Below, piece by piece: positions 22,639 to 29,185 of a stretch of DNA of 64,000 bases. A model generated the notes under the pieces. That model was not told the DNA's origin. It worked only from the letters and a program-made list of their open reading frames with translations, and ran no database searches. Within the stretch, counting starts at the first letter, position 1. The number at the start of each line of letters is the position of its first letter. Location of the stretch: positions 1,364,001-1,428,000 of the forward strand of contig NZ_JAARML010000001.1 of the NCBI RefSeq assembly GCF_011759375.1. The letters run 5' to 3'. The stretch is from Paraflavitalea devenefica (GTDB taxonomy: Bacteria > Bacteroidota > Bacteroidia > Chitinophagales > Chitinophagaceae). The position numbers and the translations under genes are program-made.

Positions 22639-24039
22639 TCAGCAATTCCTGAGTGCTTCAATTTCTTCTGCCGACTTTGGCAGGAATTTCCCCAGCTTGC
22701 GATTGCCATCGGCCGTTACCAGGAAATTATCTTCTACCCGGATGCCACTGAAATTACGGTAGCTTTCGAGCACCGTATAATTAATGAAGTTGGTATGTTT
22801 CTTTTCTGCCATCCATTGGTCTATGAGGGAAGGAATAATATAGACTCCGGGCTCAATAGTGAGCACGTACCCTGGCTCCACTGCACGTCCCAGCCTCAGC
22901 GACTTCCAGCCAAATTCTTTGCTCTTTTGTAGGTCGTCGGAGTAACCAACATACTGCTCGCCCAGGTCTTCCATATCATGCACGTCCATACCCATCATAT
23001 GACCCAGCCCGCACTGGAAAAACAAGGTATGTGCCCCGGCTGCTACGGCTTCTGCTGCATTGCCTTTCATAATGCCGATAGCCGTGAGCCCTTCTACCAG
23101 TTTCTCGCAGGCGCCTGCATGTACATCACGAAAACGAATGCCCGGCTTCAGTAAGCTGATGGCATGATCCAGGGCATTCAATACTGTATTGTATATCTCT
23201 TTTTGCTGCGTCGTAAATCGCTTGCCTACAGGAAAAGTGCGGGTGAGGTCGCCGGCATAATGCAGGTCATTTTCTGCGCCTGCATCCAATAACAACATTT
23301 GCCCTTCCCGGATCGTATTGCCGTAATAATGATTGTGCAGGGTTTCTCCATTTACCGTGCAGATGATAGGATAGGAGAGCCTTCCACCCGCAGCAAAAGC
23401 TACCTCCTGCACTTTCGCGGCTACCTCATACTCTTTCATTCCCGGCCGGGCATATTGTATGCCTGCCAGGTGCATATCGGCGCTGATAGAAACGGCCTTC
23501 TCTATCTCGGCCACTTCTACCGCTTCTTTAATAACCCGTTGGCGTATCACTGCCTTGACCAGCTTCAGGGATACCCGGCTGTCCACATCCTGCACAGGGA
23601 TCTGCATCCATTCGGCCAGTTTGATCCGGTTTTCCGGGCGGTAAGGTGGTAAAATATGCACGGTGCGCCCGGCAAAAAGTGCCTTGCGTATCCAGGTGGC
23701 TATATCAGCGTAAGGAGCGGTAGTGGAAACGCCTACCGTAGCTGCCATTTCCTTCACCGAAGGCAGCGGGCCTGTCCATACGATATCATCAATACTTAGC
23801 TCATTGCCGAAAATTACGATCTCCCCGCTTTCTGCATCCAATACAGCCGCCAGTCCGGCCACATCCAGCCCGAAATAATATAGAAATGTGCTGTCCTGTC
23901 TGAATGGGTACCAGTTGTCCTTATAATTCATGCTGCTCTCTTCATTACCCATCAACACAATAAGGCCAGATCCCATATTTTGCAGCAACGCCTGTCGCCT
24001 GCTTTTGTATACTGCGGTATCGAATAATGTAAAATGCAT
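22639..24039 (-). CDS. Aminopeptidase P-family (M24B) peptidase
   Basis: From Met 24039 (MHFTLFDTAVYKSRRQALL) 466 residues. An N-terminal AMP_N domain (about residues 1-140) is followed by a pita-bread M24 domain with metal ligands in LLLDAGAENDLHYAGDLTRTF (two Asp), GLGHMMGMDVHD (His), TIEPGVY (Glu) and VEDNFLVT (Glu). All five ligands are present. These cytosolic dinuclear-metal enzymes remove N-terminal residues before proline. The 13-residue upstream extension is not needed. Confidence 0.92.
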   Translation of the reverse strand: MHFTLFDTAVYKSRRQALLQNMGSGLIVLMGNEESSMNYKDNWYPFRQDSTFLYYFGLDVAGLAAVLDAESGEIVIFGNELSIDDIVWTGPLPSVKEMAATVGVSTTAPYADIATWIRKALFAGRTVHILPPYRPENRIKLAEWMQIPVQDVDSRVSLKLVKAVIRQRVIKEAVEVAEIEKAVSISADMHLAGIQYARPGMKEYEVAAKVQEVAFAAGGRLSYPIICTVNGETLHNHYYGNTIREGQMLLLDAGAENDLHYAGDLTRTFPVGKRFTTQQKEIYNTVLNALDHAISLLKPGIRFRDVHAGACEKLVEGLTAIGIMKGNAAEAVAAGAHTLFFQCGLGHMMGMDVHDMEDLGEQYVGYSDDLQKSKEFGWKSLRLGRAVEPGYVLTIEPGVYIIPSLIDQWMAEKKHTNFINYTVLESYRNFSGIRVEDNFLVTADGNRKLGKFLPKSAEEIEALRNC

Positions 24040-24186
24040 CCGGCAATTTATTGAGAAATCCCGAATTAGATACAACACATATTATCCTCTCATTGATGCA
24101 TCTGTGTAAAAAGGCCTGTGGGAGTTGGCGGGGCTTTTTCTAAGAGAGCTTAACCTGTGTAAGCTTTATGGGAGCTAGGTTATTTT

Positions 24187-24240
24187 CGTGGTGTGGGGCA
24201 GGATCGAACCGTCGACACAAGGATTTTCAGTCCTTTGCTC
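24187..24240 (-). repeat. tRNA-Phe 3'-half relic 1 (outer att-like repeat)
   Basis: The minus strand reads GAGC, anticodon arm AAAGGA-CTGAAAA-TCCTT, variable loop, T arm and the CCACACCA end of tRNA-Phe, with two substitutions against the intact gene. No acceptor 5' strand or D arm is present. The T stem no longer pairs fully (GACGG with CTGCC), so it has decayed. Confidence 0.85.
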
Positions 24241-24267
24241 CCGATTTTTCATCAGGCAAATTTAATT

Positions 24268-24282
24268 CAGTACTTTGTACTG
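24268..24282. promoter_or_regulatory. Short perfect palindrome before the methyltransferase
   Basis: CAGTAC-TTT-GTACTG, 15 bp, 43 bp before the methyltransferase start. Possible operator; no regulator is adjacent. Confidence 0.35.
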
Positions 24283-24324
24283 ATAAAACACACCCGACTA
24301 TCCTGTATTACTGAAAAGTATTGT

Positions 24325-25005
24325 ATGATAAAGACACTGGCTAAGGGAATTAATTTTTTATTGGGTCATAGCTTACAAAAAAGAAAGTTGTTTATTGGAA
24401 GTTCTCTCGACTATTTACAAAGGGAAAGGGAATTGGATAAAAATTACTTGGACTATGTCAGGCTTGCTTCCCTTGAATTAATCAGCTTTGAAATAAACAA
24501 CAAAAAACTTGAAGGGAACGTGGCTGAGTTGGGAGTGTACAAGGGGAAATTTGCCAGGTATATCAACCAGTACTTTCCTGGCAGAACACTTTACCTCTTT
24601 GATACTTTTGAAGGATTCAATAAGGCTGATGTGGCAAAAGAAAAGCAATACAATTTTTCCGGCGGCGATCAGAACTTCTCCGATACTTCTGTGGAAGTTG
24701 TATTAAAACAAATGCCCTACCCCGCTCAATGCAAACCTTTTAAGGGGTTTTTCCCTGAATCCGCCAAAGGGATAGAGGATAAATTTGTTTTTGTAAGTCT
24801 CGATGCCGATCTCTATGATCCTTTATACGCCGGGTTGAATTTCTTCTATCCAAAACTGGTGCAGGGCGGGTATATTTTTGTGCATGACTTTAATAATGAA
24901 AGCTACAAAGGAGCCAGGAAAGCCGTGGAAACTTTTTGTAAGGAACAGCACATCAACTACCTGCCATTACCCGATTCTGGCGGTTCTGCGGTGATCATGA
25001 AATAA
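24325..25005 (+). CDS. TylF/MycF-type SAM-dependent O-methyltransferase
   Basis: From Met 24325 (MIKTLAKGINFLLGHSL) 226 residues. The SAM-binding motif VAELGVYKGKFARYINQYFPG (about residues 65-85) begins the Rossmann fold; TLYLFDTFEGF, FVSLDADLYDPLYAGL (metal-binding Asp residues) and IFVHDFNNE are characteristic of the TylF/MycF family, which methylates sugars. In a non-macrolide producer the likely target is a surface polysaccharide or O-antigen sugar. An in-frame upstream extension to 24193 would translate the tRNA relic and is rejected. The gene sits alone between two tRNA-Phe relics and has its own terminator. Confidence 0.85.
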   Translation: MIKTLAKGINFLLGHSLQKRKLFIGSSLDYLQRERELDKNYLDYVRLASLELISFEINNKKLEGNVAELGVYKGKFARYINQYFPGRTLYLFDTFEGFNKADVAKEKQYNFSGGDQNFSDTSVEVVLKQMPYPAQCKPFKGFFPESAKGIEDKFVFVSLDADLYDPLYAGLNFFYPKLVQGGYIFVHDFNNESYKGARKAVETFCKEQHINYLPLPDSGGSAVIMK

Positions 25006-25009
25006 ATAA

Positions 25010-25040
25010 AAAAAGGCTATGTGAAAACATAGTCTTTTTT
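25010..25040. terminator. Bidirectional terminator within the tRNA-Phe repeat array
   Basis: GGCTATGT-GAAA-ACATAGTC stem with A-run before and T-run after. It ends the methyltransferase transcript and lies immediately 3' of tRNA relic 2, in the same relative place where the intact tRNA has its own terminator. Confidence 0.85.
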
Positions 25041-25094
25041 CTTCGTGGTGTGGGGCGGGATCGAACCGCCGACACAAGGATTTTCAGTCCTTTG
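25037..25094 (-). repeat. tRNA-Phe 3'-half relic 2 (inner att-like repeat)
   Basis: These 58 bp are identical to 26414-26471 in the intact tRNA-Phe gene and its 3' flank: anticodon arm, variable loop, T arm, 3' acceptor strand and the first bases beyond. Identity starts exactly at the anticodon stem, as expected for a tyrosine-recombinase attachment core of the anticodon-loop class. The stop codon of the acyltransferase lies inside it. Confidence 0.9.
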
Positions 25095-26241
25095 TGCTAT
25101 CCGGAGCGCTTTGAGATACAAGGCTTAGTGAGATTGTTGAGTTGGCCTCTGCCGTATTTTTAGTTTCCTTATACTCGAAATATTTTTTTAGAAATAGGAA
25201 CTTTTTTTCAATAAAGACGAAAGAGAGCCAGGAAATAAAGATCAGTAAGATTGTATTTTCAGCTAAAAATAGTTCACCCCAATATCTTTTAAATAAGATG
25301 TCGGGCAACAAAGGATTGATATATACATTAATAACTTTTGAATTGAGGGTTGGTATCAGGTTGTGGTATAAATAAAGTCCGTAGCTTATTTTGCCCAGAA
25401 AAATTAAAATCCTATTATCCCAGACAAATTTGAATAAAGGTTTATTGCTGTCAGCATTAATAACAATATAAGTGATAAGCCATAAAGAAATAATTGAAAT
25501 AATAGTTCTTTCGGGAAAATATATTGTTTTGTTCGACGCTAAATGCCAAAGGAAAAGTATAGTCGAAACTCCAGCGCAAAGTGATAAAATTTGGTAAAAT
25601 CTTTTTAAGGATACCAAGCCATAACTAACCTGCCATGCTAATAATGCACCAAGACCGAAAGCATCAAAACAAGTAAAGGGTAGCACGTAACCCAGGCGTA
25701 TTCCCCTCAATAGAAAACTACTGATCAAACCAGTTAAGATGAAACCGCCTATTACATGCGGGAGATACTTTTTATTTATAAATAAAATGATCCAGGGCCA
25801 CAAAAGGTAAAACTGTTCTTCAACAGCTAATGACCATAAATGAGAAAGCATCCCATCCCAGGCATCCGTATGTAAAAAATAAAAATTAGAAGCATAGGTG
25901 GCATAAAATATAAAAGCCGATTTAATATGTGTGTCCGTTGCTGTATTAAAAGCCAGCAGAATAAAAATCGTTAAATAATAAATGGGAAAAATTCGAAGTG
26001 ATCTTCGTACATAAAAGTTTTTTAGTATTGTTCCTTTTGAAATGCCATAATTAACATGGTTTTTATTATCAAATAATATTTTCGATATCAAGAAACCGCT
26101 TAAGACGAAGAAGATGGTGACACCTATTGCTCCATTGGGCGTGAAACGATTAATAATATTTGATGCAGGTAACCAATGACTGACGATTACCAAAAGAACC
26201 GCAATTGCTCTCAGGCTGTCTAATTGTTTTATATATTTCAT
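25084..26241 (-). CDS. Acyltransferase-3 family (OafA/YrhL-like) membrane O-acyltransferase
   Basis: A 385-residue membrane protein with about ten helices. The N-terminus MKYIKQLDSLRAIAVLLVIVSHW carries the conserved R and H of acyltransferase-3 proteins (RAxAxxxVxxxH), and GAIGVTIFFVLSGFLIS plus RRSLRIFPIYYL are family blocks. Such enzymes add acetyl or other acyl groups to sugars of O-antigen, capsule or peptidoglycan. The gene is visibly AT-richer than its neighbours, suggesting transfer. Its last four codons before the stop and the stop itself come from the tRNA-Phe relic. Confidence 0.88.
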   Translation of the reverse strand: MKYIKQLDSLRAIAVLLVIVSHWLPASNIINRFTPNGAIGVTIFFVLSGFLISKILFDNKNHVNYGISKGTILKNFYVRRSLRIFPIYYLTIFILLAFNTATDTHIKSAFIFYATYASNFYFLHTDAWDGMLSHLWSLAVEEQFYLLWPWIILFINKKYLPHVIGGFILTGLISSFLLRGIRLGYVLPFTCFDAFGLGALLAWQVSYGLVSLKRFYQILSLCAGVSTILFLWHLASNKTIYFPERTIISIISLWLITYIVINADSNKPLFKFVWDNRILIFLGKISYGLYLYHNLIPTLNSKVINVYINPLLPDILFKRYWGELFLAENTILLIFISWLSFVFIEKKFLFLKKYFEYKETKNTAEANSTISLSLVSQSAPDSTKD

Positions 26242-26381
26242 TCAGGCTGTTTTAGGGGGTACTGTGAGAGGCTTGTATTAGGATTTAGTAAGCTGAAATA
26301 CATTGGAAATTTTTAGAAATGGATGTGAAGAAAATCTTAACCCCTTGAGTTCCTGTTTTTTTGTTTGAACCTTTATGAAAA

Positions 26382-26411
26382 AAGCGACTATAACTTTCGT
26401 CATAATCGCTT
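26382..26411 (-). terminator. Terminator of tRNA-Phe
   Basis: Arms 26382-26394 and 26399-26411 (AAGCGACTATAAC with GTCATAATCGCTT, two wobble positions), loop TTTC on the plus strand, and TTTTTT on the minus strand just beyond. Confidence 0.75.
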
Positions 26412-26422
26412 CATTTTCTTCG

Positions 26423-26495
26423 TGGTGTGGGGCGGGATCGAACCGCCGACACAAGGATTTTCAGTCCTTTGCTCTACCGACTGAGCTACCGCACC
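26423..26495 (-). tRNA. tRNA-Phe (GAA)
   Basis: Full cloverleaf on the minus strand: acceptor GGTGCGG, TA, D arm GCTC-AGTCGGTA-GAGC, anticodon arm AAGGA-CTGAAAA-TCCTT with anticodon GAA, variable GTGTC, T arm GGCGG-TTCGATC-CCGCC, acceptor CCACACC, discriminator A. CCA is not encoded. One acceptor pair is C5-A68 instead of a Watson-Crick pair. Two partial copies of its 3' half lie downstream at 25037-25094 and 24187-24240. Confidence 0.95.
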
Positions 26496-26670
26496 TCCTG
26501 TTTCCCGGCCTCTTACATAAGGACCAAAAATCCTTGTGCTTGATTAGGGGTTGCAAAAATAGCAAATCCGTGTAAATCAAAAAATTAATTATTGATTTTG
26601 TTGTACTTATTTATGGATAGCTGTTCATAGACCTTATTACACAATAACTCCCTCAATTTCAATGTGTCGG

Positions 26671-28968
26671 TTACATACCGTACTGCGCCAGGAACTTGAT
26701 ACGCATGATCTTCAACTGCTCCCAGTTGTAATTGCCATCGCTCAATTCTTCTGCCGCAACCTGTAAAGAGGATGTTTCGCAGCCTTTAAAGTATTCCAGG
26801 ATTTCGTCTTGCTCATGGTCATCCAGCATTTCATCAATGGCATAATCCAGGTTCAGTTTCGTGCCACTCGCTGCAATGGTCTCCATTTCTTCCAACATCT
26901 CATCCATGCGCCAGCTTTTATTGCGGGCAATGGTCTCCAGCGGGATCTTCTTATCGGTTTGCTGTATGATATATACCTTATTGCCGCTCTTATTCACCAC
27001 GCTCTTCATCACAAAATCATCCGGCCGCTCAATATTGTTATCCTCCACATACTTGGCAATCATCTCTATAAAAGGTTTGCCATAGCGCAATGCCTTGCCC
27101 TTACTCACGCCGGAACATTTTTCCAGCTCCTGCATGTTGGTAGGATACAAAGTGGCCATGTCCTGCAAAGAAGTTTCCAGGAAGATCACAAAAGGCGGTA
27201 ATGCTTTTTTCTTGGCTTCTTTCTGGCGCAGTTCTTTCAGCATCTCAAACAGCTTCTCATCAGTAGCGGCAGTGCCCGACGGGCTTTCGGCCCCTTCATC
27301 ATCATCTGCATTCGCCTCTTCATAGAGGTTATTCAGGACGATCTTGAATGATTTCGGCTTCTTTGCAAATGCTTCACCTGCTTTGGTAATTTTCAGTACA
27401 CCATAATCCTCAATTTCCTTGCTCAGCAGACCTGCCAGCAATAACTGACGGATCAAGGTACTCCAGTAATGATCCGGCTCATCCTTGCCAATACCAAATT
27501 CTGCAATACCCTCATGGCGGAACATGCTGATATTGGGTGTAAGTCGGCCTATAATAATATTAACGGTATAATCAGTAGCAAAACGCTCATCCAGCGCTTT
27601 TACGGTCTTCAATACCTTCACAGCATTGTCTTTGGCCTCTACCTCTTCTTTGGGATGCAGGCAGTTATCGCACTCCCCGCAATTCTTATCCGTATACTCT
27701 TCTCCAAAATAACTCATCAGCACCTTCCGGCGGCATACCCCGCTTTCGGCATAAGCTACGGTTTCATTGATCAACTGGGCGCCCACCTCGCGTTCACTCA
27801 AAGGTTTATCCCGCATCAGGTGTTCCAGCTTGGCTACATCCTTGTGGGAATAATACAGGATACACTTGCCTTCCAGGCCATCACGTCCGGCGCGACCGGT
27901 TTCCTGGTAATAATTTTCAATGCTCTTGGGAATATTATAATGGATCACAAAACGGATATCCGGTTTGTCAATACCCATACCAAACGCAATGGTAGCTACA
28001 ATCACCTGCACTTCTTCATTCAGGAACAGGTCCTGGCGCTCCGCACGCAGCTTGCTGTCCAGTCCCGCGTGATAGGCCACTGCTTTAATGCCATTGGCCA
28101 TCAGCATATCGGCCAGCTCTTCTGTTGTTTTACGGTTCAGCGTATAAACAATACCGCTTTTACCCTTCATCTGTACAATAAAACGTACAATATTCTTGAT
28201 TGTCTGATCCTTCTTGATCTTGGGTTGGATCTCGTAATAAAGGTTCGGACGGTTAAAAGAAGAAATATAAATGGCAGGATCGCGCAGGTCTAAGTTCTTG
28301 ATAATATCGCTCTGTACTTTTGGGGTAGCGGTAGCGGTGAGCGCAATGACCGGTATGTCCGGATTAATCTGGGTCATCATCTCCCGCAGGCGCCGGTATT
28401 CCGGGCGGAAATCGTGCCCCCATTCAGAAATACAGTGGGCTTCATCAACAGCGAAAAAAGATATCTTCAGATCAGCAAAAAACTCCAGGTTCTCCTGTTT
28501 GGTCAGGGTTTCAGGTGCCACGTACAACATCTTTGTGCGTCCGCTTGTCAGGTCATCCTGTACTTCCCTAATTTCTTTTTTGCTTAATGTGGAGTTGAGA
28601 AAGTGTGCTACATCGTCCTTGCTGCTATAGCTGCGTACCAGGTCTACCTGGTTTTTCATGAGGGCGATCAGCGGGCTTACAATAATGGCCACCCCTTCAC
28701 TGATCATAGCGGGCAACTGGTAGCATAAGCTTTTACCGCCGCCGGTGGGTTTGATCACAAATGTATCCTTGCCACCCAATAAACTTTTAATGATAGCTTC
28801 CTGGTTGCCTTTAAAACCGTTGAAGCCAAAATGTTCCTGCAATGCTTCCTGCAGATAAGAACTGGTAATGCTGCCATTGGACTTGGTGGTCCCGGCTTTT
28901 TTACTAACAGCGCCGTTTTTAGATCTTTTCTCTGTCTTCGTTGCCGTTTTCTTGGTTGTTGTTCCCAT
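26671..28968 (-). CDS. recQ: ATP-dependent DNA helicase RecQ
   Basis: From Met 28968 (MGTTTKKTATKTEKRSK) 765 residues. A Lys/Thr/Ser-rich N-terminal tail of about 45 residues precedes the helicase core: FVIKPTGGGKSLCYQLPA (Walker A), VDEAHCISEWGHDFR (DEAH box plus the RecQ aromatic loop), QETGRAGRDG (motif VI). Then the zinc site CRRKVLMSYFGE...CGECDNC, a winged-helix RQC domain, and an HRDC region (about residues 535-610). A C-terminal extension of about 150 residues with repeated E/D-rich helices exceeds E. coli RecQ (about 610 aa) and is common in Bacteroidota. The 33-residue upstream frame is not conserved in type. Confidence 0.95.
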   Translation of the reverse strand: MGTTTKKTATKTEKRSKNGAVSKKAGTTKSNGSITSSYLQEALQEHFGFNGFKGNQEAIIKSLLGGKDTFVIKPTGGGKSLCYQLPAMISEGVAIIVSPLIALMKNQVDLVRSYSSKDDVAHFLNSTLSKKEIREVQDDLTSGRTKMLYVAPETLTKQENLEFFADLKISFFAVDEAHCISEWGHDFRPEYRRLREMMTQINPDIPVIALTATATPKVQSDIIKNLDLRDPAIYISSFNRPNLYYEIQPKIKKDQTIKNIVRFIVQMKGKSGIVYTLNRKTTEELADMLMANGIKAVAYHAGLDSKLRAERQDLFLNEEVQVIVATIAFGMGIDKPDIRFVIHYNIPKSIENYYQETGRAGRDGLEGKCILYYSHKDVAKLEHLMRDKPLSEREVGAQLINETVAYAESGVCRRKVLMSYFGEEYTDKNCGECDNCLHPKEEVEAKDNAVKVLKTVKALDERFATDYTVNIIIGRLTPNISMFRHEGIAEFGIGKDEPDHYWSTLIRQLLLAGLLSKEIEDYGVLKITKAGEAFAKKPKSFKIVLNNLYEEANADDDEGAESPSGTAATDEKLFEMLKELRQKEAKKKALPPFVIFLETSLQDMATLYPTNMQELEKCSGVSKGKALRYGKPFIEMIAKYVEDNNIERPDDFVMKSVVNKSGNKVYIIQQTDKKIPLETIARNKSWRMDEMLEEMETIAASGTKLNLDYAIDEMLDDHEQDEILEYFKGCETSSLQVAAEELSDGNYNWEQLKIMRIKFLAQYGM

Positions 28969-29185
28969 GCTCAAATAGTTTCCTTCACACAATAAGTGAC
29001 ATAATTGTCCATAAGAGATAAGGTTATAAAGTTTAATAACAGCGTAATAGCTGCTTTGGACACACACCCGTTATAAGCGGATGTCATAGTAGAAACTCAT
29101 GTTTGGCCAGGTCGTCAGATCGGTGGTTAGTATTGGTTAGATGCCGTTCCTGCTTTAATGGAACCGGGTTTCTTTCAAAGGGTTG

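Follow-up and report, generated by a model that had tools for sequence, protein, structure and literature searches.

How does a single tRNA gene come to be trailed by two partial copies of itself, each set off from the next by one gene? The question is raised by the tRNA-Phe gene in a 64-kb stretch of the Paraflavitalea devenefica genome (8.7 Mb in 21 contigs; G000 in our labels), positions 1,364,001 to 1,428,000 of contig NZ_JAARML010000001.1, referred to here as the window and numbered from its first base. The two segments lying between the copies are probably the remains of elements that inserted serially at the anticodon loop of tRNA-Phe and subsequently lost their integrases. This explanation brings together the repeats, which break off on their 5' side at the anticodon arm, the lack of an integrase in the segments, the varied cargo at the site within the genus and the integrase-bearing elements present in relatives.

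Anatomy of the tRNA-Phe locus

The sole tRNA detected by ARAGORN in the window is a functional tRNA-Phe with a GAA anticodon (26422-26495, minus strand), the target of integration. A repeat search returned three copies of its 3' portion, at 24180-24242, 25037-25099 and 26414-26476. The inner relic (25037-25094, minus strand) comprises the 3' half from the anticodon stem together with 8 bases beyond the tRNA 3' end, 58 bp in all that are identical to 26414-26471, and matches the last 50 tRNA bases at 50/50 positions (25045-25094). The outer relic (24187-24240, minus strand) matches the same 50 bases at 48/50 (24188-24237), with 2 substitutions. As a control, the next-best 50-mer in the same orientation within the 64 kb reaches 27/50, and 30/50 was the highest value in 100 base-shuffled windows. 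Both relics stop abruptly on their 5' side, where the anticodon-loop motif CTGAAAA is preceded by no more than 7 and 10 bases of contiguous identity.

The relic-bounded segments measure 857 and 1377 bp and hold one gene each. The outer segment encodes a TylF-type methyltransferase (24325-25005, plus strand; PF05711, E 2.7e-16) of 226 aa from its likely ATG; the long open reading frame (ORF) begins within the outer relic, the ATG at 24325 being the likelier start. The inner segment encodes an acyltransferase-3 family protein of 385 aa (25084-26241, minus strand; PF01757, E 5.2e-24), and the stop codon of this gene falls within the inner relic. Terminator-like hairpins, recognised by eye, lie directly 3' of the tRNA, between it and the acyltransferase gene (26384-26409), and directly 3' of the inner relic, after the TylF gene (25015-25034). 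Six-frame fragments of 24100-26600 contain no integrase or recognisable integrase fragment (best E 1.5). The repeat, tRNA, Pfam and six-frame searches confirm in this respect the first-pass annotation of the stretch, which had described two 3'-half copies, one gene in each segment and no integrase.

Among 45 tRNAs scanned in the same genome, in stretches of up to ~10 kb on each side, 3'-half relics were found at tRNA-Phe only. A search with RF00005 at E up to 10, in which 150 of 348 candidates were scored, gave the inner relic below the cut-off and did not list the outer one, and is therefore not a sensitive search for relics. A partial copy of another kind accompanies a tRNA-Lys gene (L185:9418-9491, contig C5), the first 51 bases of which recur at L185:4733-4783. 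This copy ends in the T arm, ~4.6 kb downstream of the intact gene; it preserves the 5' part of its tRNA, where the tRNA-Phe relics preserve the 3' half.

Relics and integrases across the family

A 31-nt core of the tRNA-Phe 3' half has a match in 354 of 394 Chitinophagaceae genomes, 56 of which (hand count) contain it in at least two places. Loci were fetched from 46 of these 56 multi-copy genomes, that is, from all save G111, G115, G165, G176, G195, G219, G226, G295, G298 and G348; part of the multi-copy cases proved to be whole tRNA duplicates. Where only the relic end was fetched (19 loci), a tyrosine integrase with its start facing the relic is present in 15 and absent from four. It lies 81-362 bp from the relic in 14 of the 15 loci and 1,093 bp away in the other.

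Fully fetched relic-ended segments number 21, after removal of one duplicate locus and with a decayed segment of G003 (see below) kept outside the table. An intact integrase occurs in 0/15 segments shorter than 5 kb, a set that takes in the window's two segments, four units with a GIY-YIG-like gene and a 264-bp case in G301, the distal copy of which retains most of the 5' half. Relic-bounded units that lack an integrase and measure 0.26-4.7 kb recur in the family. Three of the six segments longer than 5 kb carry an integrase, in two of them beside the relic. One of the 15, a relic-bounded element of 4.4 kb (G268, L225), has its integrase in three open fragments and so appears to stand midway between an active element and a remnant devoid of integrase.

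At the loci with a relic-side integrase, identity to the tRNA mostly begins at CTGAAAA or in the stem bases just before it; in L048 and L081, which belong to a group with a 375-aa integrase, it begins further up, in the D loop. The break points of the window relics fall within the range of the integrase-adjacent relics, and that of the inner relic is common to G171 and G017, both with a relic-side integrase. Together with the one-gene segment of G003, this agreement in break point supports the earlier proposal of serial site-specific integration at the anticodon loop.

The same site within the genus

Comparison covered four relatives of the same genus (g1; G001 to G004) and members of a sister genus (g3), judged close by RecQ identity of 88-91%. 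The locus is intact in three of the four congeners, all of which have RecQ upstream and M24 downstream. In the window the RecQ helicase gene (26671-29067, minus strand) is the fixed flank upstream of the tRNA, and a gene for an M24 aminopeptidase P-type protease (22639-24078, minus strand) is the distal flank common within the genus. A scan of 33 of the 80 M24 loci returned for named genomes places tRNA-Phe near M24 only in L242, so M24 serves as a flank within the genus only.

What lies between tRNA-Phe and M24 varies: in G001 the muramidase gene NamZ; in G002 NamZ together with a protein judged RRM-like by eye and one more ORF, of 107 aa; and in G004 a different acyltransferase-3 gene, 34% identical and in the opposite orientation. 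The first-pass annotation had considered that all relatives might share exactly the arrangement of the window; 0/4 do. NamZ is also found at this site in G105 (g3), and the P. devenefica genome yields weaker, partial matches only. Given its presence at the site in relatives including G105, the absence of NamZ from P. devenefica and from G004 is read as a loss.

In G003 the contig breaks at the tRNA-Phe 3' end, and the other side of the locus is found on contig C145, where M24 and NamZ are followed by a decayed relic, then by a single RCC1-like gene, then by a better relic and last by an intact tyrosine integrase. Once a 3-base insertion is allowed for, the decayed relic matches at 24/24 bases (score 39, against at most 25 in 300 shuffles); the better one ends at the anticodon loop (score 66, against at most 34 in 300 shuffles). 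SAM-like and arm-binding domains accompany PF00589 in this integrase. At the same tRNA, a second species of the genus carries a relic-bounded one-gene segment with other cargo and an integrase-bearing element.

The tRNA-Phe genes of the five genus genomes are identical in their 5' half and occur in three versions of the 3' half; in G003 the 3' half is changed and the 5' half unaltered. The version present in G001 is that of G105, from genus g3. The varied 3' half on a constant 5' half gives rise to acceptor-stem mismatches, at position 4 in G003 and at position 5 in P. devenefica, G002 and G004.

Origin of the segments

Serial integration followed by integrase loss would proceed as follows. 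At each insertion the attP of the incoming element would supply a new tRNA 3' half and displace the previous one outward, where it becomes a relic; insertion of the TylF segment would have come first and that of the acyltransferase segment second. Deletion would then have removed the integrases, and presumably the neighbouring NamZ, leaving remnants of the cis-mobilizable type. The tyrosine recombinase that the first-pass annotation proposed to seek elsewhere in the genome is represented by four PF00589 genes, two of them Xer-like in appearance, and none is of the G003 type (best E 1.8e-7, 24% identity). Lacking an integrase of that type, the genome would hold the segments as probably immobile units unless a helper enters. 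As helpers, the four resident genes were rejected: none falls inside the clades of relic-side integrases, own_L003 and own_L004 being long branches of unsure place. A comparison of viral contigs with the G003 integrase gave 38 stretches matching a pattern and no confirmed relative, and the exact 42-nt tRNA-Phe half had 0 matches in viral contigs.

Several points weigh against this explanation, some from the segments and some from the history of TylF. No integrase fragment remains in either window segment, so the case for decay here is drawn from relatives. Five of the fully fetched relic-ended segments measure 5-13 kb, and in these the integrase is missing from three and lies away from the relic in one. 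The TylF segment and the RCC1 segment of G003 are alike in layout, each with a gene reading toward the tRNA, a terminator-like hairpin and a relic; such a shared layout, with genes that neatly fill their segments, is not predicted by random deletion. In G003 the junction between element and tRNA is hidden by the contig break. Different single cargo between relics, which the first-pass annotation would expect in relatives, is present in G003; in G001, G002 and G004 a gapped comparison with shuffles finds no relic.

As to TylF, a tree of 21 sequences (that of P. devenefica, two from g3 and 18 of 29 other loci fetched) groups the window copy with the two g3 copies (support 97/94). Both of these (L219 in G227, L220 in G006) adjoin tRNA-Phe and are broken or truncated, and no relic is detectable beside either. 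At third codon positions TylF and the G227 copy are 36% identical, a value that RecQ and KdsD there exceed (44-48%; RecQ rows of G002 and G004, out of frame, left out), arguing against recent exchange of TylF between the two genera. Either TylF has long resided at the site, a reading with which this divergence agrees, or it was acquired separately from a source outside the sampled genomes. Had it been inserted long ago and left undisturbed, its outer relic should have gathered more than 2 changes in 50; such good preservation suggests gene conversion with the tRNA, re-insertion or separate acquisition of TylF. In their own right, the g3 copies differ in their damage: one terminates prematurely, with a second short reading frame after it, and the other shows an internal loss and then runs into an unrelated reading frame.

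The first-pass annotation had ordered the two events as older outer and younger inner. That claim relied on 2/50 versus 0/50 substitutions, too few to date the insertions, and either copy could have been refreshed by gene conversion or re-insertion. Gene evidence points in the same direction as regards order, TylF relatives occurring at this tRNA in g3 and acyltransferase relatives, at the loci fetched, not occurring near one elsewhere.

Other origins have been considered for the repeats. Whole tRNA-Phe duplicates do exist in the family, 94 bp apart in G102, 750 bp in G117 and 2.1 kb in G160, and the relics could in principle be remnants of such an ordinary tandem array. We regard this as very improbable and reject it because of the abrupt 5' break: the 3' halves match at 50/50 and 48/50, and past the anticodon arm no 5' half can be recognised, leaving neither complete nor evenly decayed copies. 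The break also coincides with that of the integrase-adjacent relics, and a strict search gives a single tRNA-Phe match in 4/4 genus relatives, a looser one adding only the relic of G003. It is scarcely credible that a GIY-YIG endonuclease cut the tRNA gene and that repair copied the segments in, leaving 3' halves on both sides. Four genomes (G153, G364, G025 and G216) do have a one-gene, GIY-YIG-like interval of ~370 bp between two tRNA-Phe 3' halves; however, the distal copy in these units retains the first nine bases of the tRNA and carries a hairpin where the D arm would be, which sets it apart from the relics in the window. Inspection by eye of the ORFs in the window segments and in the genus loci read revealed no GIY-YIG gene.

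A closer competitor holds that the segments are true one-gene cassettes, small circles with the tRNA-Phe 3' half and terminator as their only site, which never had an integrase of their own and were inserted in trans by that of another element. The recurrence of small integrase-less units in the family and the common layout of the TylF and RCC1 segments would fit this, as would the filling of the interval by exactly one gene in both window segments and in that of G003, and an integrase of helper type is available in the genus, in G003. Yet G268 shows an integrase decaying inside a small element, two g3 copies of TylF stand beside tRNA-Phe without a distal relic, and a search for either cargo gene as a cassette at other loci found none: a tRNA-Phe half lies within ~1.5 kb of the homologue at 0/29 other TylF loci fetched (G227 and G006 standing outside those 29) and at 0/29 other acyltransferase loci. 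On this evidence, such cassettes are an unlikely origin for the segments, and decay of the integrases is the likelier one. In its fuller form, the idea would be that Chitinophagaceae possess a trans-mobilised single-gene cassette system, in which resident integrases of the G003 type capture and stack one-gene circles at the tRNA-Phe 3' half and terminator, each re-insertion renewing the relic with the live 3' half; this would be integron-like, with a tRNA gene as attachment site, and is quite doubtful at present. Recombination acting in trans on a tRNA half is nevertheless the part worth testing.

Cargo of the window segments and of the site elsewhere

The G+C content of the acyltransferase segment is 30-36% and that of the TylF segment 37-43%, versus 44-54% in the flanking genes. 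Relatives of TylF are patchy, occurring in 43/394 family genomes at E<=1e-20 and, at the same threshold, in none of the four genus relatives. The acyltransferase has matches at E<=1e-40 in 46/394 family genomes, the best family relative being 50% identical. It also matches a PHROG named O-antigen acetylase, a match that alone does not show phage origin. The predicted role of the two enzymes is O-acylation and O-methylation of a glycan on the cell surface, through which they may alter phage receptors.

Elsewhere in the family the site carries other kinds of genes. Ten cargo proteins were picked by hand from other members of the family; seven of them match an anti-phage model and three match none. 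Relic-bounded segments encode Lamassu LmuA/LmuB (G035; L060/L239), SIR2-HerA (G331; L229) and, in G381 (L074), a SoFic-like Fic protein and a partial match to a pAgo model; in the element of G364 (L070) a full-length pAgo adjoins tRNA-Phe. Pfam was run on six other proteins, from segments or edges outside the genus (G105, three in G033, G303 and G025), and only the GIY-YIG gene gave a match. Annotated cargo elsewhere consists of defence genes, GIY-YIG genes or proteins with no Pfam match, glycan genes being found only in the genus and its neighbour genus. The presence of defence cargo makes tRNA-Phe a general hot spot rather than one for glycan genes only, and the site may be a defence-gene hot spot in Chitinophagaceae. 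The suggestion of the first-pass annotation that stacking at one tRNA could be a general route to glycan variation is not supported in that form by this cargo, and a tRNA route had already been published for another phylum, according to the excerpt of PMC7771536. If surface glycans are indeed the substrates of the two enzymes, receptor change would be paired at this site with the anti-phage systems located at the same tRNA in several relatives.

The GIY-YIG-like gene (Pfam-tested in G025 only) occupies its ~370-bp interval at L069, L071, L076 and L079, in the four genomes named above. The interval is bounded by tRNA-Phe or a relic and by a tRNA-Phe-like copy that keeps the acceptor strand, in which a short palindrome, in 3/4 the GC-rich TCCGCC..GGCGGA, replaces the D arm. 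ARAGORN calls these distal copies tRNA-Phe, and the one that was folded has a cloverleaf-like minimum-energy shape. The interval looks like a tiny homing-type unit.

Comparison with known systems

Among the matches listed in a literature search, judged by titles and the starts of abstracts, no publication describing this site in Chitinophagaceae or Bacteroidetes was found. Set against the definition of Islander, a standard island finder, as excerpted from PMC4383910, the locus has an intact tRNA with a displaced fragment in the same orientation, and has neither a tyrosine integrase inside the island (none in 24100-26600) nor a length of at least 2 kb (857 and 1377 bp). Islander rejects units without an integrase or below 2 kb, and segments of this kind are therefore easily missed. 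With one gene per segment and no phage genes beside them, the segments do not resemble the remnant of a serotype-converting prophage. They do have the form of cis-mobilizable elements (CIMEs), flanked by att sites, as recognised by sequence, and devoid of integrase or transfer genes; a possible helper, the intact integrase of G003, resides at the same site, and P. devenefica has none of that type. The locus also has the form of an additive tRNA cassette island, since P. devenefica and G003 have one-gene relic-bounded segments with different cargo and the other three genus genomes differ again, with no relic.

Comparable arrangements have been described in other bacteria. At the ssrA gene of Dehalococcoides, serial integration leaves many 3'-end repeats, and 15 islands lack an integration module and are possible cis-mobilizable elements (PMC3146451, excerpt). 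Their stacked, integrase-less units are like those of the window; the target there is a tmRNA, the recombinase a serine recombinase and the units are larger and multi-gene. Serotype-converting phages of Shigella flexneri, said in the excerpt of PMC4159516 to integrate at tRNA genes with the exception of Sf101, similarly carry glycan-modifying cargo including an O-antigen acetylase, but are active phages, whereas the window segments hold no phage gene. Tycheposons, as outlined in the excerpt of PMC10872708, resemble the G003-type elements in having tRNA-bounded cargo with a tyrosine recombinase; the window segments are far below their 4-200 kb and carry no recombinase.

Another close counterpart is fGI-2 of 'Ca. 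Methylopumilus', where additive islands at tRNA-Lys range from 330 bp with 1 gene to 42 kb with 63 genes and vary between relatives (PMC10872708, same excerpt). There, too, recurring tRNA 3'-end repeats mark the variable units, although these are 20-nt repeats of the tRNA end, against 50-58 nt from the anticodon arm in the window, and the genes are mostly of unknown function. An envelope-sugar island of 'Ca. Actinomarinales' contains small tRNA-targeted cassettes with tRNA-fragment repeats, and its excerpted description (PMC7771536) likewise reports cell-envelope cargo and names tRNA-Phe among the tRNAs; it differs in bringing several tRNAs into one large polysaccharide island, whereas the window has one tRNA between genes of housekeeping type. 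The window locus is a well-supported further case of a kind known from other bacteria, and maps within one family a recurrent integration site, the tRNA-Phe anticodon loop, at which large integrase-bearing elements and one-gene remnants share the same address.

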